DNA of 64,000 nucleotides, from NCBI RefSeq assembly GCF_003364295.1, contig NZ_NXLO01000003.1:1-64000 (forward strand), read 5' to 3'. Below are positions 27-27,291 of this stretch, piece by piece. The number at the start of each line of letters is the position of its first letter. The first letter of the stretch is position 1. The notes beneath the pieces are model-generated. The model did no database searches. It saw only the letters and a list, made by a program, of their open reading frames with translations, and was not told the DNA's origin. A program made the position numbers and the translations under genes. The DNA comes from Helicobacter sp. MIT 99-5507 (GTDB lineage Bacteria > Campylobacterota > Campylobacteria > Campylobacterales > Helicobacteraceae).

Positions 27-1739
27 TTATTTTCTTAGTTTTGATTTTATTTTATTTTTAAGAGAATCTAATTTTTTTTCATCTTTTATCATCTTTGTTG
101 CAATCCTTCTACCTAGATATATCAAATACCATTTAAAACTAAAGCTAACTTCTCTCATGCCGTATTTATATTTTAGTGTCTTTAGTGCTTCATTCATTTT
201 CAATAAATTTGCTTTATTTGTAGATATTGCACTCTCATCTTTACCATATTCATGCCCTTTGGTAGAGCTAAAAAAGCATGTATCATTATGCGGTGGAACA
301 TAAGTATTGATATTTAGATATTTTTTTAGTGCAAAAGAGAGATAAACATCTTCTGCAACATTATTAAGTTTATAGAATTCATTTGAGCCAATCCACATAG
401 CACCTAAATAGTCTTTCTTCAAAAACCAACAATGCCCTGCAAAATCAACTCTAATTGTTTTTTTATTTCTTAGGGCAAAAGGTGGATTATCATTCCAACC
501 AATAGTGCGATGCGCTAAATCAAATGGATATTTATCTAAGCTATTTGATAAGATTCCAATACCGCCATAAAGCCCATCTTTTTTTAAAGTTTCATAATGA
601 CAATTTTCTAAATAGCGATATGCTGGAATCGTATCATCATCAAAAAAGCAAATATATTTACTTTTTGAGAGCAATCCACCAGCAAATCTTCCCCAAACAC
701 CTACATTGTAATTTACTCTAATAATATTATCAAAGATAGATTCTAAATCTTTTGGAATCTCTTCTTCTATAACATCAGAATCCTTTTTATTTGGAGTATC
801 AATAAATAAAATAAGTTCTTTTGGCTTTATAGATTGATTTAAAAGGGCATTGACTTGCTCTTTTAATACATCACCTCGCTTATATAAAGTAAATACTACG
901 CTTACATCACAATTAAAATCCTCATACATATAGCAATTTCTACTACCAAAAATAGAGTGCCTATCTTGATATGGACGAGTCACTTCCTTGTGGTAATAGC
1001 TATCAATGCTACTTCCAAAATCAACATAAGTATTATTTGGATTGTCTAAAAACAACTCTTTTATAATAGGAGAGCTCATCGGTCCTGCACTCACAACAAA
1101 AAGCAAATCTCTACTATCTTTAAAATCACTTTTTATAGAATCTATCATCTCTCTTGCGTGATTCTCCCAAAAACTAATACAATCATTATCGATAGCATAA
1201 TGTTTTATTATGTTTAGATTCCCGATTTTTGCACCACTTGCAGAAAAATTTGCTATTAGAACAGCATCTCTTTTAATAAGCTCAAATTTTGATTTGAAGT
1301 ATTTAAAATTGCAATTCACCCATATATTTGAAAATGTAATATTTGAGCTTTTTATTCTACTGCTATACCAATAATAAGCTTCTCTATCACAACAAGGACA
1401 AGGAATAGCATAATAAAATTTGTCATCTTCTACATCAAGAGAATTATAAATACTAACTCCAAGCTTTGATACATAATTTGGTGATACCCATTTTTCTTGT
1501 GCTACAACAGACCTACCAAGCATTATTGCATGCTCACCATCAGCATTTCTAACAAGTGCAAAATTCTCTTTTTTTAGAATCTTGTCAATAAAAAAATTTA
1601 ATTCTCCATCTAATCTCTTTAGCTTATACCCTCTTATATAGGGATTTAGAATCTTTGAAGTTATATAAAAATTATAAAGATGATTAATGATGATATAAAA
1701 AAAACGGATTTTATAGAGTTTTTTTATGATTTTTTTCAA
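27..1739 (-). CDS. two-domain glycosyltransferase (GT-D-like N-terminus, GT2 C-terminus)
   Basis: Predicted to transfer sugars during synthesis of a surface polysaccharide or LPS. The 570-residue protein has two parts. Residues about 40-270 contain an R-N-A-D-G-E motif and CPCC, resembling the GT-D (DUF1792-like) fold. Residues about 280-500 look like a family 2 glycosyltransferase, with a VVFTLYKR start, a QSIKPKELILFID stretch and an acidic FFDDDT metal/nucleotide-sugar motif. The start is TTG, with AAGG nine bases upstream in the gap after the preceding gene, which ends 12 bases away. It is the last gene of the minus-strand surface-sugar operon in this window. Donor and acceptor cannot be read from the sequence. 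Confidence 0.75.
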   Translation of the reverse strand: MKKIIKKLYKIRFFYIIINHLYNFYITSKILNPYIRGYKLKRLDGELNFFIDKILKKENFALVRNADGEHAIMLGRSVVAQEKWVSPNYVSKLGVSIYNSLDVEDDKFYYAIPCPCCDREAYYWYSSRIKSSNITFSNIWVNCNFKYFKSKFELIKRDAVLIANFSASGAKIGNLNIIKHYAIDNDCISFWENHAREMIDSIKSDFKDSRDLLFVVSAGPMSSPIIKELFLDNPNNTYVDFGSSIDSYYHKEVTRPYQDRHSIFGSRNCYMYEDFNCDVSVVFTLYKRGDVLKEQVNALLNQSIKPKELILFIDTPNKKDSDVIEEEIPKDLESIFDNIIRVNYNVGVWGRFAGGLLSKSKYICFFDDDTIPAYRYLENCHYETLKKDGLYGGIGILSNSLDKYPFDLAHRTIGWNDNPPFALRNKKTIRVDFAGHCWFLKKDYLGAMWIGSNEFYKLNNVAEDVYLSFALKKYLNINTYVPPHNDTCFFSSTKGHEYGKDESAISTNKANLLKMNEALKTLKYKYGMREVSFSFKWYLIYLGRRIATKMIKDEKKLDSLKNKIKSKLRK

Positions 1740-1751
1740 GAAGTTTGCCTT

Positions 1752-2678
1752 TTAAGTGAATTTTGTAAGAAATAAATACAAAATTCTACTAAAAATTCCT
1801 CTATTTTTAAATCTAAATTCATTTTTTGACCAATTGCTATTTAAAATATAGCCTAAATATTCATTTTTTAGATTAGATATATTATTTCCACTTAATCTAT
1901 CTAAAATATATTCTGCTTTTGTATGATACATCTTAAAAAATGGCTCGATTGCGACTTCTTTTATCAAAGATACTTTTTGAAAATATGCATTATACCAAGT
2001 GAATTCAAAAGGGGAAATCTCTAGCAAATCTATATAGCTAAGATTTCTTTTTTTCATAAAATCATCTCTAAAACTACATAGAATCTTATGTGAAAAAATT
2101 TGACCATTATGACTTGTCCTAAGCCTAGAATCTTCACATCCTACAAAATCAAATATCTTTTTTATAAAATATTTTCTCTCTTTTGCAAAATTTATATAAT
2201 AATTTTTTGAATGCAAATCTTTATCTTGCACAAGAATGATATATGGCGTAGTTTCATCATAGAAAAAATCATCTCTAGAAAAATCTTTAATAAATATAGT
2301 ATCACTATCAATACACAAATAATGCTCTGCATATTCATATTCAAAAAATGTGAGTTTTGAGATTTCTTGATTTAAATATCCGCTACTTAGACCATTTTTT
2401 CTTTTTGATTTTATTAAATATGGGTATGCAAAATCACTATCTTTTATAATTTTTATACAATCATCTTCAAACTTTTTAAAATCACAAAATGATATTAGAT
2501 TCTGCCCCCCCCCATTTCTATCATAGCTTATATTTTTTTCATCATAAATGCTTTCATCTTGGATTGCAACTACAAATGGAATCTTATCAATATTATGTCT
2601 TTTAAAACTCTCTATCATAAGAGTAAATGCTTTGTAATCCTTATTATAAGTGATACAAAAAAAGCAAAAATCTCTCAT
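1752..2678 (-). CDS. putative phase-variable glycosyltransferase-like protein with G9 tract
   Basis: The 308-residue protein begins FCFFCITYNKDYKAFTLMIES and carries CIDSDTIFI at about residues 120-130, an acidic DxD-like motif expected of GT-A nucleotide-sugar enzymes. It resembles the DUF6492-type surface-sugar family; the specific sugar is unknown. Its ATG overlaps the stop of the upstream gene (ATGA), so the two are probably translationally coupled. About 55 codons in, nine consecutive G (coding strand) encode Gly-Gly-Gly. The frame is open at nine. Loss of one G gives a TAA three codons after the tract, and gain of one gives a TGA within about eight codons. Such tracts are classic slipped-strand switches in Helicobacter and Campylobacter surface genes, so ON/OFF variation is likely. 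Confidence 0.7.
   Translation of the reverse strand: MRDFCFFCITYNKDYKAFTLMIESFKRHNIDKIPFVVAIQDESIYDEKNISYDRNGGGQNLISFCDFKKFEDDCIKIIKDSDFAYPYLIKSKRKNGLSSGYLNQEISKLTFFEYEYAEHYLCIDSDTIFIKDFSRDDFFYDETTPYIILVQDKDLHSKNYYINFAKERKYFIKKIFDFVGCEDSRLRTSHNGQIFSHKILCSFRDDFMKKRNLSYIDLLEISPFEFTWYNAYFQKVSLIKEVAIEPFFKMYHTKAEYILDRLSGNNISNLKNEYLGYILNSNWSKNEFRFKNRGIFSRILYLFLTKFT
2505..2513 (-). repeat. G9 homopolymer tract, probable phase-variation switch
   Basis: Nine C on the plus strand read as nine G in the glycosyltransferase-like gene. I saw no other C or G run of this length in this otherwise AT-rich window. Both neighbouring lengths shift the frame into an early stop, so the tract would act as a contingency switch. 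Confidence 0.85.
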
Positions 2679-3796
2679 TTATTATCCTTTAATTTTGAAA
2701 TACAGCTTTGAAGCAAAGTAATAGAATCTTCATTTAGCTTTTCATTTAATGTATGTAAATTAAATTTTAGATTATTGTATTTATCTGTATTAATAAGTTT
2801 TATTGCATATTTTAGGGCTTGATATAAACTAGAATCATAAAAAATTGCATTATTGTTATCAAAACCAAAACTCTCACCAAATTTTTTATTAATCACAAAT
2901 GGCAAATTATACATTAGGCTAAATTGTCTAAGTCCGCTAGTGCTATTGTATAAATAATGTTTATGTGCAAAAGAATCAAAAAATCCAAAAGTATAATGTG
3001 GATTACTTGATTTTAAAATCTCATGCAATTCTAATGTAGTTGGATTTTTGAAAAATGATATATATTCTTTAAATCTCAAATCTTTAAATTCATTTCTGCC
3101 AATTAAAATAAATCTAAAATTATTAATATTATCTTTTAATAGATCTTCTATTGCTTTGTATAATTTTTCTCTAAAATTCCTATGATACAAAGGAAAACCA
3201 ATGCTAATAAAAGTAGCAATATCATTTTTGATAAATTTAATATCAATTTCTTTAGAGCAACTAAGTGTATTTGATACAGCCATGCCCCTAAAGTTTAATT
3301 TTCTTAAAGCAAAATACCTACCTTCTTTATAATTAGGCATATCTCTAAATTTATAAATATCGCTTATGGTGTGGTAGATTCCAAGGATTCCATATTTTGC
3401 ATTGATGTTTGCAAGTGTTTTTATGTGATGTTGTGTTTTTAGCGATAAAAACATAGTATTAAAAAATACAAAATCATATTTGCTTGTATCTTTAAGTAAA
3501 TCTAAAATCTGCCTTAATTCCAATTTTATAGCATTTTGGTAGCTAGATTCTATTCTAACTACTACATCTACTTCATATCCCAAGCTTTCAAAATAATAAA
3601 TTATAGAATCTAATAGCTCAAGATGAAAATTATTTAACTCCAAGATTAGAATCTTGCTTTTTGATTCTATATAAAAATCTGATTTAGGAAGAGAATCTAA
3701 GAATACTAAATCACTTTTTAGATTCTTTTTGTAATTTAAAAATCTAAAAAATCTATTTTTTGTAGCATAAAATAAATCAAGCAAAAAAACTATCAT
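2675..3796 (-). CDS. hypothetical protein, GT-B-like, surface polysaccharide operon
   Basis: This 373-residue protein is not assigned to a named family. Residues about 45-180 alternate hydrophobic strands and helices like a Rossmann half. Residues about 205-345 (FISIGFPLYH, FRFILIGR, SSNPHYTFGFFDS, GLRQFSLMYNLPFVI) look like the nucleotide-sugar half of a GT-B enzyme. No signal peptide is evident. It overlaps both neighbours by four bases (ATGA), placing it between the 2-epimerase and the phase-variable gene in one operon. A glycosyltransferase role is inferred from fold impression and context; a glycan-modifying or polymer-export role is possible. Confidence 0.55.
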   Translation of the reverse strand: MIVFLLDLFYATKNRFFRFLNYKKNLKSDLVFLDSLPKSDFYIESKSKILILELNNFHLELLDSIIYYFESLGYEVDVVVRIESSYQNAIKLELRQILDLLKDTSKYDFVFFNTMFLSLKTQHHIKTLANINAKYGILGIYHTISDIYKFRDMPNYKEGRYFALRKLNFRGMAVSNTLSCSKEIDIKFIKNDIATFISIGFPLYHRNFREKLYKAIEDLLKDNINNFRFILIGRNEFKDLRFKEYISFFKNPTTLELHEILKSSNPHYTFGFFDSFAHKHYLYNSTSGLRQFSLMYNLPFVINKKFGESFGFDNNNAIFYDSSLYQALKYAIKLINTDKYNNLKFNLHTLNEKLNEDSITLLQSCISKLKDNK

Positions 3797-4923
3797 AATT
3801 TTTTTATAAAATTCACTATCTTCTTAGCGCTATTTCCATCACCAAATACAAGTGGATTCTTAGGATTTGCCATCTTTTGATATATTTTAGGTTTATTAAA
3901 CAAAGATAATACAGATTGAATGATATTTTCTTTATTTGTGCCAATTAATCGCAATGTTTTGCATGATAGTGCCTCTTTTCGCTCTGTTTTGTTTCTAAGT
4001 ATCAAAGTTGGTTTATGCAAATATGTAGCTTCTTCTTGAATCCCTCCGCTATCAGTTAATATCATATAACTTTTATACATCAAATAAAGAAATTTTTCAT
4101 AGCTAAGCGGCTCTATTAGGTGGATATTATCGATATTTCCTAGAATCTTTCTCATAGGAATTTGTATATTTGGATTTAAATGAAGTGGATAAATAATAGA
4201 AATATTTGGTAATTTTAGTGCTATTTCTTTTAGTGCATTTGCTATATTTTCTATCTCTACTCCAAAACTCTCTCTTCTATGTGCAGTAACTAAAATAAAT
4301 TTAGAATCTAGCAATTCACCCAATCCCATAGATGAAATAATATTTTCTTTATATTTTTTATCTTGTTTGATTTTATTTAATGTTATCTTCAAAGCATCAA
4401 TCACGCTATTTCCAACAATTCTAATATTTTGCTTTTTTACTCCATCTTTTATTAGATTCTTATATGCTAATTTAGTCGGGGCAAAATGATAAGTAGCGAG
4501 TTTTGTTGTAAGCTCTCTATTTATTTCTTCTGGAAATGGATTTTATTTATCAAAAGTCCTTAGTCCTGCTTCAATATGAGCTATTTTTATCTTAAAGTAG
4601 AATCCTGCCAAAGCAGATATAAAAGTCGTGGTTGTATCACCATGAACAAGTATCAAATCGGGATTAAAATCTTTTAAAATCGGCTTTAATTTTATTAATA
4701 TATTTGTGCTAATGCTAAAAAGATCTTGAGATTCTTGCATGATATCTAAATCATAATCTGGAGATATATCAAATATTTTTAGCACATCATCAAGCATGCT
4801 TCTATGCTGTGCTGTGATACAAATCTTTGTATTTATAGATTTCTCTTTTCTTAATGCTTTGGTTATAGGATAAAGCTTTATTGCCTCGGGTCTAGTGCCA
4901 AAAATTACTAAAACTTTTTTCAT
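3793..4923 (-). pseudogene. wecB: UDP-N-acetylglucosamine 2-epimerase, interrupted by an in-frame stop
   Basis: The intact enzyme converts UDP-GlcNAc to UDP-ManNAc for surface sugars. The frame starts [19 protein letters not shown], runs through [11 protein letters not shown] and [11 protein letters not shown], then hits TAA at 4543-4545. The same frame continues without a shift as NPFPEEINRE and, further on, VTAHRRESFG, LTDSGGIQEEA and RNKTERKEAL to a TGA at 3793. Without the stop it would be about 376 codons, normal for WecB. Relatives usually have tyrosine after the lysine, so one base change (TAT or TAC to TAA) explains it. The first 126 residues alone lack the catalytic C-terminal half. 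It is either a recent nonsense mutation or a sequencing error. It is the first gene of the four-gene operon. Confidence 0.9.
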
Positions 4924-5011
4924 AGGCTACTTCTAAATTGAACTTATTTTAAATTATTTTGTGATTAAATCTATATTATAAAAAAATATACATAAAAAAA
5001 GGTTGATTATA

Positions 5012-5377
5012 TTGAAAGCTTTAAATAAAGAAGAAGAAGATGTGATTTTACATAAAGGAACAGAAATGCCATTTACTGGTGAATACAATGATTGTTTCAA
5101 AGATGGAATCTATGTTTGCAAACAATGCAGAGCACCGCTATATGATTCAAAAGATAAATTTGTATCAGGATGTGGATGGGCAAGTTTTGATGATGAAATA
5201 CCAAATAGCATAAAAAGAGAAATTGATAGAGATGGAGTTAGGATCGAGATTGTGTGTGCTAATTGCAATGGGCATTTAGGGCATGTATTTTTAGGCGAAA
5301 AATTCACACCTAAAGATACTAGGCATTGTGTAAATTCAATATCACTAATATTTATTCCAAGAGATAAGATTAATTAA
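5012..5377 (+). CDS. msrB: peptide-methionine (R)-S-oxide reductase
   Basis: Reduces methionine-R-sulfoxide in oxidised proteins. Two CxxC pairs (CKQC and CANC) form the structural zinc site, GCGWASF is the substrate loop, and the catalytic cysteine lies in RHCVNSISL near the C-terminus. I place the start at TTG 5012 because A7GG ends nine bases before it; the TTG at 5003 directly abuts that element. The protein is about 121 residues, a normal stand-alone MsrB without the MsrA domain it is fused to in H. pylori. It converges with smpB, whose stop overlaps its last codons by four bases. Confidence 0.92.
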
Positions 5378-5829
5378 TATTTATTTTTTAATGCAGCTTG
5401 TGCTTCTCTATCAAGCATTTTTTTCTTTATACTTTCTCTTTTATCATATAGTTTTTTACCTTGTGCTAAAGCAATTTCTGCTTTTAAAATATTTTTTTTA
5501 TTAAAATATAGACTTAATGGAACTATCGTATATGTTTTTTGTGATACAAAAGAAAATAATTTATTAATCTCTTTTTTGTGCAATAATAACTTTCTAGGGG
5601 CTTTTTCATCTGGCTTAAAATACGCATTTGTAGTATTTAAATGTGATATATGTGTATTAAATAAAAAAGCTTCATTTCTTATTATCCTAACAAAGCTATC
5701 TTTTATATTTACTTTTTTTGCCCGAATTGCTTTTACTTCAGCACCGCTTAGAACAACACCTGCTTCAAATCTATCAATGATAAAATAATCAAATAAAGCC
5801 TTTCTATTTGTGGCTACAATATTTCGCAT
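5374..5829 (-). CDS. smpB: SsrA-binding protein SmpB
   Basis: Partner of tmRNA in rescuing stalled ribosomes. The 151-residue protein shows the family pattern: [28 protein letters not shown] at the N-terminus, NTHISHLN and KLLLHKKEI in the middle, and a basic C-terminal tail ([12 protein letters not shown]) that enters the decoding centre. It lies seven bases downstream of ispE, and the ispE-smpB pair follows csrA as in H. pylori. The ssrA gene is not in the window. Confidence 0.95.
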
Positions 5830-7665: not shown

Positions 7666-8782
7666 TACTAATTTCCAATTTTTTTATAAAAGCACTAAAA
7701 ATATCACGCAATTTTATAATATCATCTATCTTGCTATTTTCATCTATTGCATGAATGCTAGCATTTAAAAGTCCTAGCTCTATTACCTCGATTCCAAAAC
7801 TACTAAAATATCGTGCATCACTTGTCCCACCACCTGTATCAAGCTTGCAATCTATATTTACTACCTCCATAATTGCAGACTTTATAGATTCTATTAGAAT
7901 CTTAGATTCTGTAATAAATGGATATGAACTCTGCTTTAACTCCAAAGAATAAGGCAAGAGATTGAATACATTATCAATATATCTTTTTAGACTTTCTTGT
8001 GTAGTAAGGGGATTGTTTCGCACATTAAACATAATTTCTAAATCATTTGGAGTTACATTTACAACACCCATTCCAGACTTAATATTTGTAATAATTAATC
8101 TACTTTCCAAAAAATTATCATCTCCACTATCAAGTGCGATATTTGAGAGTTTTGGAAGTAGCGGGGCTATTAAATCTATTGGATTTATACATTTATTTGG
8201 ATAGGCTACATGACCTTGCTTGCCCATGATTTTTAACCTACCATTAATAGAACCTCGTCTGCCAATTTTTACTACATCACCTAGAATCTTATTTGAAGTT
8301 GGTTCTGCAACAAGTGCAAAATCAGGCAAAAAATCTATATTTTTTAAATGCTCTAGCATTATTTTTGTGCCATAGATTCCTTCACCTTCCTCATCGCTTG
8401 TAAGCAAAATAGATAGAATCCCGCTAAATTGTTTTACTTCTTTTATAGCATATACAAAGCTAGCAACTCCACCTTTCATATCGCATACACCACGGCTATA
8501 AATCACATCATTATCAATTACACCACCAAATGGCGGATAGCTCCAGCCTTCACCACTTGGAACTACATCTATATGCCCAGCAAAACAAAGATGGATTTTG
8601 GGATTTTTATTTGCTGAAAAATCTTTATACAAAAAGATGTTTTTTACTCCATTTTTATCAAGTCTAATTACTTCAAAATCACTCAATTCTGCCTTTATCA
8701 AATCAAAGATTCCGCATTCATTTGGAGTAATGCTCTCTTTTTGTAATATTTGTATTAAAAAATCTATCATATCATTTTGCAT
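7658..8782 (-). CDS. dapE: succinyl-diaminopimelate desuccinylase
   Basis: M20 metallopeptidase-type enzyme of lysine and meso-diaminopimelate (cell-wall) synthesis. Zinc and catalytic motifs are present: CFAGHIDVVPSGEGW, VCDMKGG, TSDEEGEGIYG, the TGGGTSDARYF segment and the final metal histidine in NASIHAIDENS. At 374 residues it is full length. Its 3' end overlaps truB by eight bases, so dapE-truB-csrA-ispE-smpB is probably one transcript. Confidence 0.94.
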   Translation of the reverse strand: MQNDMIDFLIQILQKESITPNECGIFDLIKAELSDFEVIRLDKNGVKNIFLYKDFSANKNPKIHLCFAGHIDVVPSGEGWSYPPFGGVIDNDVIYSRGVCDMKGGVASFVYAIKEVKQFSGILSILLTSDEEGEGIYGTKIMLEHLKNIDFLPDFALVAEPTSNKILGDVVKIGRRGSINGRLKIMGKQGHVAYPNKCINPIDLIAPLLPKLSNIALDSGDDNFLESRLIITNIKSGMGVVNVTPNDLEIMFNVRNNPLTTQESLKRYIDNVFNLLPYSLELKQSSYPFITESKILIESIKSAIMEVVNIDCKLDTGGGTSDARYFSSFGIEVIELGLLNASIHAIDENSKIDDIIKLRDIFSAFIKKLEISIE

Positions 8783-8798
8783 TTTATTCCTTTAGAAT

Positions 8799-9509
8799 CT
8801 ATTCTTTTATGGCGATAAATGTAGCAAAATTTGCAAAACGAAAAATCATCTCTACACTTCCAAAGCCAACTTTTTTTAAAAGTGCAATATTTTCTTCTTG
8901 TGTATATGGAATAAGAATATTTTCTAATGCTTCTCTTTTTTTGCTTATTTCAGTATTGCTATAGCCCTGCTCTTTTTTAAAATTATGATAAATATCTATT
9001 AGCTCTTTATCTAGCCATTTATTATTTGAAATAAGCTTTTCACTTAAAATAAAAATACCATTTTTTGGTAATGAATTATATATTTTTAAGAGTAGATTTT
9101 CTCTATTTATAGGGCGTATAAATTGAAGTGTGTAGTTTGAAATAACCACATCAAAATTAAAATCAAAATCCAAAATATCAGCTTGAATAAAATTGATATT
9201 TGCACCATAAGCTTTTGCTTTTGCTTTTGCAATATCTAACATGCTAGAAGAATTATCAATCCCACTTAATCTTACATCGCTAAGATTCTGACTTAACTCT
9301 AATAATAAATTCCCAGTAGAACAGCCCATATCACATAATGAATTGATTTTTTTTGATTTTAGAATCTGCGAGATTAGATGAATATTATCACGATAATATG
9401 GAATAGACCTAGTAGCCATATCATCAAATACGGCAGCAACTTCGCTATTAAATGAAAATTTTTGATTTATTTCTTTTTGAAAAATTACATCAATATTATT
9501 TTTTTTCAT
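8799..9509 (-). CDS. cmoA: carboxy-S-adenosyl-L-methionine synthase
   Basis: Converts SAM and prephenate to carboxy-SAM for the cmo5U34 modification of tRNA wobble bases. The SAM-binding motif CDMGCSTGNLLLEL is at about residues 57-70, followed by LSGIDNSSSML, NYTLQFI and ILSEKL. At 236 residues it has the family's normal length. Its partner cmoB is about 50 kb away in the same window (59715-60602), so both steps of the modification are present. Confidence 0.92.
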   Translation of the reverse strand: MKKNNIDVIFQKEINQKFSFNSEVAAVFDDMATRSIPYYRDNIHLISQILKSKKINSLCDMGCSTGNLLLELSQNLSDVRLSGIDNSSSMLDIAKAKAKAYGANINFIQADILDFDFNFDVVISNYTLQFIRPINRENLLLKIYNSLPKNGIFILSEKLISNNKWLDKELIDIYHNFKKEQGYSNTEISKKREALENILIPYTQEENIALLKKVGFGSVEMIFRFANFATFIAIKE

Positions 9510-26687: not shown

Positions 26688-27245
26688 ATGGGTTTAAAAT
26701 CTGATAACTGGATAAGGAAAATGTCTCTAGAATGTGAGATGATTACACCATTTGCTGAAAATCAACTAAGAAAAGGAGTAATTAGTTATGGTGTAAGCAG
26801 CTATGGATATGATATTAGAGTAGCTAATGAATATCAAATATTTACAAATATCAACTCAACAATTGTAGATCCAAAAGATTTCAATGCAAATAATGTAGTG
26901 CATTATACAGGCGATATTTGTATAGTCCCGCCAAATTCATTTGCTCTTGCTAGAACAATAGAATATTTTAAGATTCCAAGAAATGTATTAGCAATATGTC
27001 TTGGGAAAAGCACATATGCAAGATGTGGAATAATAGTAAATGTAACACCATTTGAACCAGAATTTGAAGGCAATATAACTATTGAAATATCAAATACAAC
27101 TCCACTCCCTGCAAAAATATATTCAAATGAAGGAATTGCACAAGTATTATTTCTAGAAGGCGATGAAGCATGTAATACTAGCTATAAAGATAGAAATGGT
27201 AAATATCAAAAACAAACAGGTATAACATTGCCAAAAGTATTATAA
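26688..27245 (+). CDS. dcd: dCTP deaminase
   Basis: Deaminates dCTP to dUTP for dTMP synthesis. The 185-residue trimer-fold protein has [13 protein letters not shown], the catalytic-loop [25 protein letters not shown] with the conserved glutamate, and a C-terminal [10 protein letters not shown] tail that closes over the nucleotide. It is divergent from accB; dcd next to accB is also the H. pylori order. Confidence 0.94.
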
Positions 27246-27255
27246 GGATTATTTT

Positions 27256-27284
27256 AGATTCTAGAATCTATAGTTAGATTCTAG
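27256..27284. terminator. convergent-gene hairpin built from three AGAATCT/AGATTCT copies
   Basis: CTAGAATCTA (27261-27270) and TAGATTCTAG (27275-27284) form a perfect 10-bp stem with loop TAGT. A further AGATTCT at 27256-27262 overlaps the left arm by two bases and makes an alternative back-to-back pair. It is located in the 46-base gap between convergent dcd and rplQ. No T run follows, so terminator function is likely from position but unproven. Confidence 0.6.
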
Positions 27285-27291
27285 ATGAAGA

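Follow-up and report, generated by a model that had tools for sequence, protein, structure and literature searches.

AGATTCT, a probable uptake-sequence-like motif of Helicobacteraceae, furnishes the arms of a hairpin between the convergent dcd and rplQ genes

In the present work, the 7-mer AGATTCT emerged as a likely uptake-sequence-like motif of the Helicobacteraceae, copies of which appear to have been co-opted into a hairpin at the ends of two convergent genes in Helicobacter sp. MIT 99-5507. We infer the uptake preference from the sequence features laid out below, and the hairpin probably has a role at RNA ends. The window referred to here is the whole stretch of 64,000 nt that was analysed; statistics on gene context refer to a 464-kb sample (the window plus loci L015-L034; 29% G+C), which covers 30% of the 1.53-Mb genome under study (G000). 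The first-pass annotation had likened the motif to the uptake sequences of Neisseria and Haemophilus, commonly placed as inverted pairs in terminators. On the sequence level this parallel is well supported, as it extends to most of the features that can be tested there, namely copy numbers, reading frames, strands, flanks, dialects, pairs and competence genes, while its terminator part held only partly.

The hairpin resides in the 46-bp gap (27246-27291) between dcd, which encodes dCTP deaminase (26688-27245, plus strand, with its stop at 27245; Pfam DCD, 3.1e-34), and rplQ, which encodes ribosomal protein L17 (27292-27645, minus strand; Pfam Ribosomal_L17, 1e-33) and is the last gene of the rpsK-rpsD-rpoA-rplQ operon. 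All three motif copies previously assigned to this gap were located, at 27256-27262 (plus strand), 27263-27269 (minus strand, AGAATCT on the plus strand) and 27276-27282 (plus strand). The second and third of them contribute to a perfect stem-loop, TCTAGAATCTA-TAGT-TAGATTCTAGA (27260-27285), with a 4-nt loop and a stem of 11 bp, one pair longer than the 10 bp originally claimed. RNA folding gave this structure energies of -14.0 kcal/mol on the plus and -13.1 kcal/mol on the minus strand, and shuffled sequences were as stable in 4 of 200 and 0 of 200 cases, respectively. Besides, the first two copies adjoin to form a perfect 14-bp palindrome, an alternative fold to the stem-loop; abutting palindromes of this type exist at 12 sites genome-wide, including the dcd/rplQ gap. 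The hairpin is real and in itself ordinary, and it is its building material, the motif copies, that is out of the ordinary.

AGATTCT is the top over-represented 7-mer of the window, where 167 copies were found against 17.4 ± 4.0 expected. The complete genome holds 4,065 copies (2037 + 2028 on the two strands), or ~1 per 378 bp, compared with 442 (212 + 230) for the reversed word. Within the 464-kb sample, AGATTCT exceeded synonymous-codon shuffles 4- to 12-fold in all six frame/orientation classes. This rules out a codon or peptide origin and identifies the word as a DNA-level signal. Its spacing along the genome is Poisson-like, except for one 30-kb defence island (C1:125001-155000; L021, L022), picked post hoc, in which the density is halved; the same island contains McrBC and type I R-M genes, broken genes and a raised G+C content. 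Of note, words with a central C or G (AGA[C/G]TCT) were depleted down to ~0.3 of expectation in the sample, possibly through restriction avoidance or as an effect of the background model.

The core of the motif, GAWTC, is palindromic apart from W, and one-base deviations are tolerated chiefly in the first and the last base of the 7-mer, which may be R and Y, respectively (in the genome under study, GGATTCT is enriched 2.8-fold and AGATTCC 4.6-fold). It is these properties that bring in the main rival to the uptake reading, a methylation-linked motif resembling cyanobacterial HIP1 (GCGATCGC): AGATTCT would then be an iterated near-palindrome with a GAWTC core and R/Y ends, upheld by DNA methylation and repair, as proposed for HIP1. 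HIP1, too, is a short word that occurs in every frame and likewise attains high densities. Besides, methyltransferases are abundant in Helicobacteraceae, and deviations from HIP1 were reported mostly at its end bases (PMC4390886), the same pattern as observed here. However, HIP1 is linked to methylases and fully palindromic, whereas the flank preferences of AGATTCT differ strongly by side (chi-square of 289 for position 8 versus -1 in the genome under study, and of 163 for position 9 versus -2 in G047, a representative of a second genus), a difference not expected of a symmetric methylase site. One widespread type of PF01555 methylase, moreover, survives in the genome under study only as a broken copy, and we know of no link of HIP1 to competence genes or to inverted pairs at gene ends. 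Taken together, we regard a HIP1-like origin as unlikely. The asymmetric flanks argue that AGATTCT is directional despite its near-palindromic core. Their preferences vary by genus and thus constitute dialects: on the 3' side, A is favoured at position 8 in the genome under study, and A, W, A and A at positions 8-11 in G047 and in G030 (genus g5); the extended motif reads AGATTCT-A-W-A-A in several genera.

Across 75 Helicobacteraceae genomes, AGATTCT was enriched in 12 genera, and weakly so in two more (g2 and g9); g6 was the sole genus without enrichment. With sizes of 1.5-1.7 Mb and, in the one that was sampled, 39.6% G+C, the eight g6 genomes resemble those of the H. pylori group. Outside the family, most families lacked enrichment. 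The density peaks in G030, which carries 16,584 copies in ~2.7 Mb (1 per ~163 bp), far above its relatives. In G015, an apparent alternative word was traced to a CRISPR repeat; the array (L048-L049, joined position ~24.7-25.4 kb) is composed of 36-nt repeats, GTTTTAGCCACTTCATAAATATGTTTATGCTAAAAT, and 30-nt spacers.

The distribution of competence genes is suggestive in this regard. A secretin is encoded in 67 of the 75 genomes and N_methyl pilins in 55, yet both are absent from all eight g6 members, which do possess ComEC (present in 74 of the 75 genomes). This link between secretin and motif represents one evolutionary event, in the g6 clade, and g2 and g9 have the secretin, yet only weak enrichment of the motif. 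By homology, the genome under study harbors a cluster of GspE/PilB, GspF and MshL-type secretin genes that is like the cts cluster of C. jejuni. In addition, twelve N-methyl pilin-like genes are spread over its contigs C1, C2, C3 and C4, many with an identical N-terminal score; genomes of genus g1 contain 6-12 such genes and those of other genera 0-5, which suggests a multi-copy pilin family. The motif-rich genome G034 has an interrupted secretin gene (C1:1140303-1140817; an internal stop, two overlapping pieces).

Homologous Cts machinery within the same bacterial order also invites a comparison with C. jejuni, whose uptake is restricted to DNA with methylated RAATTY sites (PMC10046745). By analogy, the cell might methylate RGAWTCY and the uptake machine might read this mark rather than the word itself, and the two cores are alike in their palindromic R...Y form. 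On the other hand, the motifs differ, C. jejuni reads methylation, no GAWTC methylase was identified here, and the one-sided flanks favour direct reading of the sequence. A methylation-dependent tag consequently strikes us as improbable, somewhat more so than the HIP1-like scenario.

With respect to the arrangement of copies, pairs spaced 0-15 bp apart in the genome under study comprised 92 and 84 in the two inverted arrangements and 88 in direct orientation; copies scattered randomly at the density found would give about 43, 43 and 86, respectively. Inverted pairs are hence in twofold excess genome-wide, and ~8% of the AGATTCT sites sit in close inverted pairs; for known uptake sequences, ~10% were reported to occur as inverted repeats (PMC1939737). 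Inverted pairs also outnumbered direct ones in most motif-rich genomes, with a near tie in G002 (226 versus 261 direct). Enrichment of paired copies at other gene ends, a check proposed in the first-pass annotation, was seen in the sample of the genome under study: tandem and convergent gaps together contained 12 inverted pairs against 2.5 expected, and divergent gaps none. In the same sample, motif density was higher in convergent gaps than in genes (5.0 versus 2.56 per kb, P=0.002), and stems of at least 10 bp were formed by 7 of the 12 gap pairs but by only 3 of 35 pairs in coding sequences (P=0.001). In G047, however, the excess of pairs in 3' gaps was absent, although the density in gaps rises. 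Inverted pairs in terminators are therefore not a family-wide rule.

The dcd/rplQ gap of relatives puts the local hairpin into perspective. In L013 (an uncultured Helicobacteraceae bin; RpoA 88%) and L014 (Helicobacter sp. 16-1353; 84%), the closest named relatives, the gap contains, respectively, a 12-bp stem with zero motif copies and a 14-bp stem that is for the most part different in sequence and whose 3' arm is continued by a motif copy and a tail rich in U. The constant element at this place is the hairpin, and its make-up from a motif pair is particular to the genome under study among the three. Conservation of motif sites was no better than that of anagram words when measured against a relative of 84.5% identity (0.24 versus 0.32); in comparison with the anagram controls, it was not above them for L013 and slightly above for L014. 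Elsewhere in L014, AGATTCT occurs four times in a 110-bp gap (8738-8848) flanked by accB- and accC-like genes on either side, and two of these copies abut as an inverted pair.

The convergent gap, the strong 11-bp stem and the recurrence of a hairpin in this gap of relatives would all befit an ordinary bidirectional intrinsic terminator in which AGATTCT words arose by chance, with no relation to uptake. Yet, the stem at dcd/rplQ is not followed by a T-run on either strand, a terminator scan (stem plus T-run) did not find a match there, and the other gene-end hairpins, too, lack a U-tract (mean of 2.93 T in 8 positions versus 2.84 in the background). So neither the dcd/rplQ hairpin, despite its stable stem-loop, nor the others are canonical intrinsic terminators. 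Besides, the ~10-fold over-representation of the word genome-wide and the twofold excess of inverted pairs indicate that the motif copies in the hairpin are not due to chance alone. We thus consider the ordinary terminator very improbable. What remains of the notion of inverted pairs in terminators is their concentration at 3' ends in the genome under study. Finally, a chromosome-maintenance motif such as Chi or KOPS, which the high abundance of AGATTCT might bring to mind, merits hardly any credence, since Chi and KOPS are strongly polarised relative to replication but AGATTCT shows no such bias (leading:lagging counts of 633:564, P=0.05, in the genome under study and 515:520, P=0.90, in G047), and these strand counts largely refute that reading.

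Several established systems lie close to AGATTCT. With the DUS of Neisseriaceae it has in common copy numbers in the thousands, on either strand and in coding frames, dialects that vary by genus, a type IV pilus-like machinery and, in the genome under study, inverted pairs at gene ends. AGATTCT differs from them in sequence, in its shorter, near-palindromic 7-bp core, in its occurrence in another phylum and in its much higher density, and neither a ComP-like receptor nor a U-tract after the hairpins was identified here. The USS of Pasteurellaceae, in turn, resemble AGATTCT as abundant core words with a one-sided A/T-rich flank and some inverted pairs, but are unrelated in sequence. They are also biased to gene termini (PMC2346458), whereas within the genes of our sample AGATTCT displayed no such bias (P=0.81).

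How might copies of an uptake motif end up in a hairpin? Most likely, a competence machinery of the Cts type (secretin/type IV pilus-like) prefers DNA that bears AGATTCT. Transformation would then keep copying the word into the genome and lead to its accumulation. Where copies come to lie head-to-head at a permissive site, e.g. a convergent gap, they could supply both arms of a stem-loop. In the dcd/rplQ gap, relatives likewise keep a hairpin, of other sequence, and the one in the genome under study is now built of motif copies. This hairpin probably marks the 3' ends of the dcd and rplQ transcripts or protects them.

On balance, and with slightly less confidence than for the motif itself, we favor the view that those Helicobacteraceae that are not H. 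pylori-like employ a third family of uptake sequences of independent evolutionary origin, AGATTCT with its genus dialects, the densest known, and that the H. pylori-like lineage lost the motif together with the secretin/pilus uptake machine. As of 2025, Neisseriaceae and Pasteurellaceae were named as the only families with such uptake motifs (PMC12616744). We found no prior report of AGATTCT, or of uptake sequences, in the Helicobacter and Campylobacterales literature; as most subscription journals lay outside this search, an earlier report is possible. If the above view is correct, it would add a third independent case of an uptake motif, in the Campylobacterota and with up to 1 copy per ~163 bp, and would offer a comparative test of how self-recognising uptake motifs arise, with the H. 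pylori-like species that lack the motif as a natural contrast. The hairpin between dcd and rplQ would illustrate how copies of such a motif can be put to use at gene ends.
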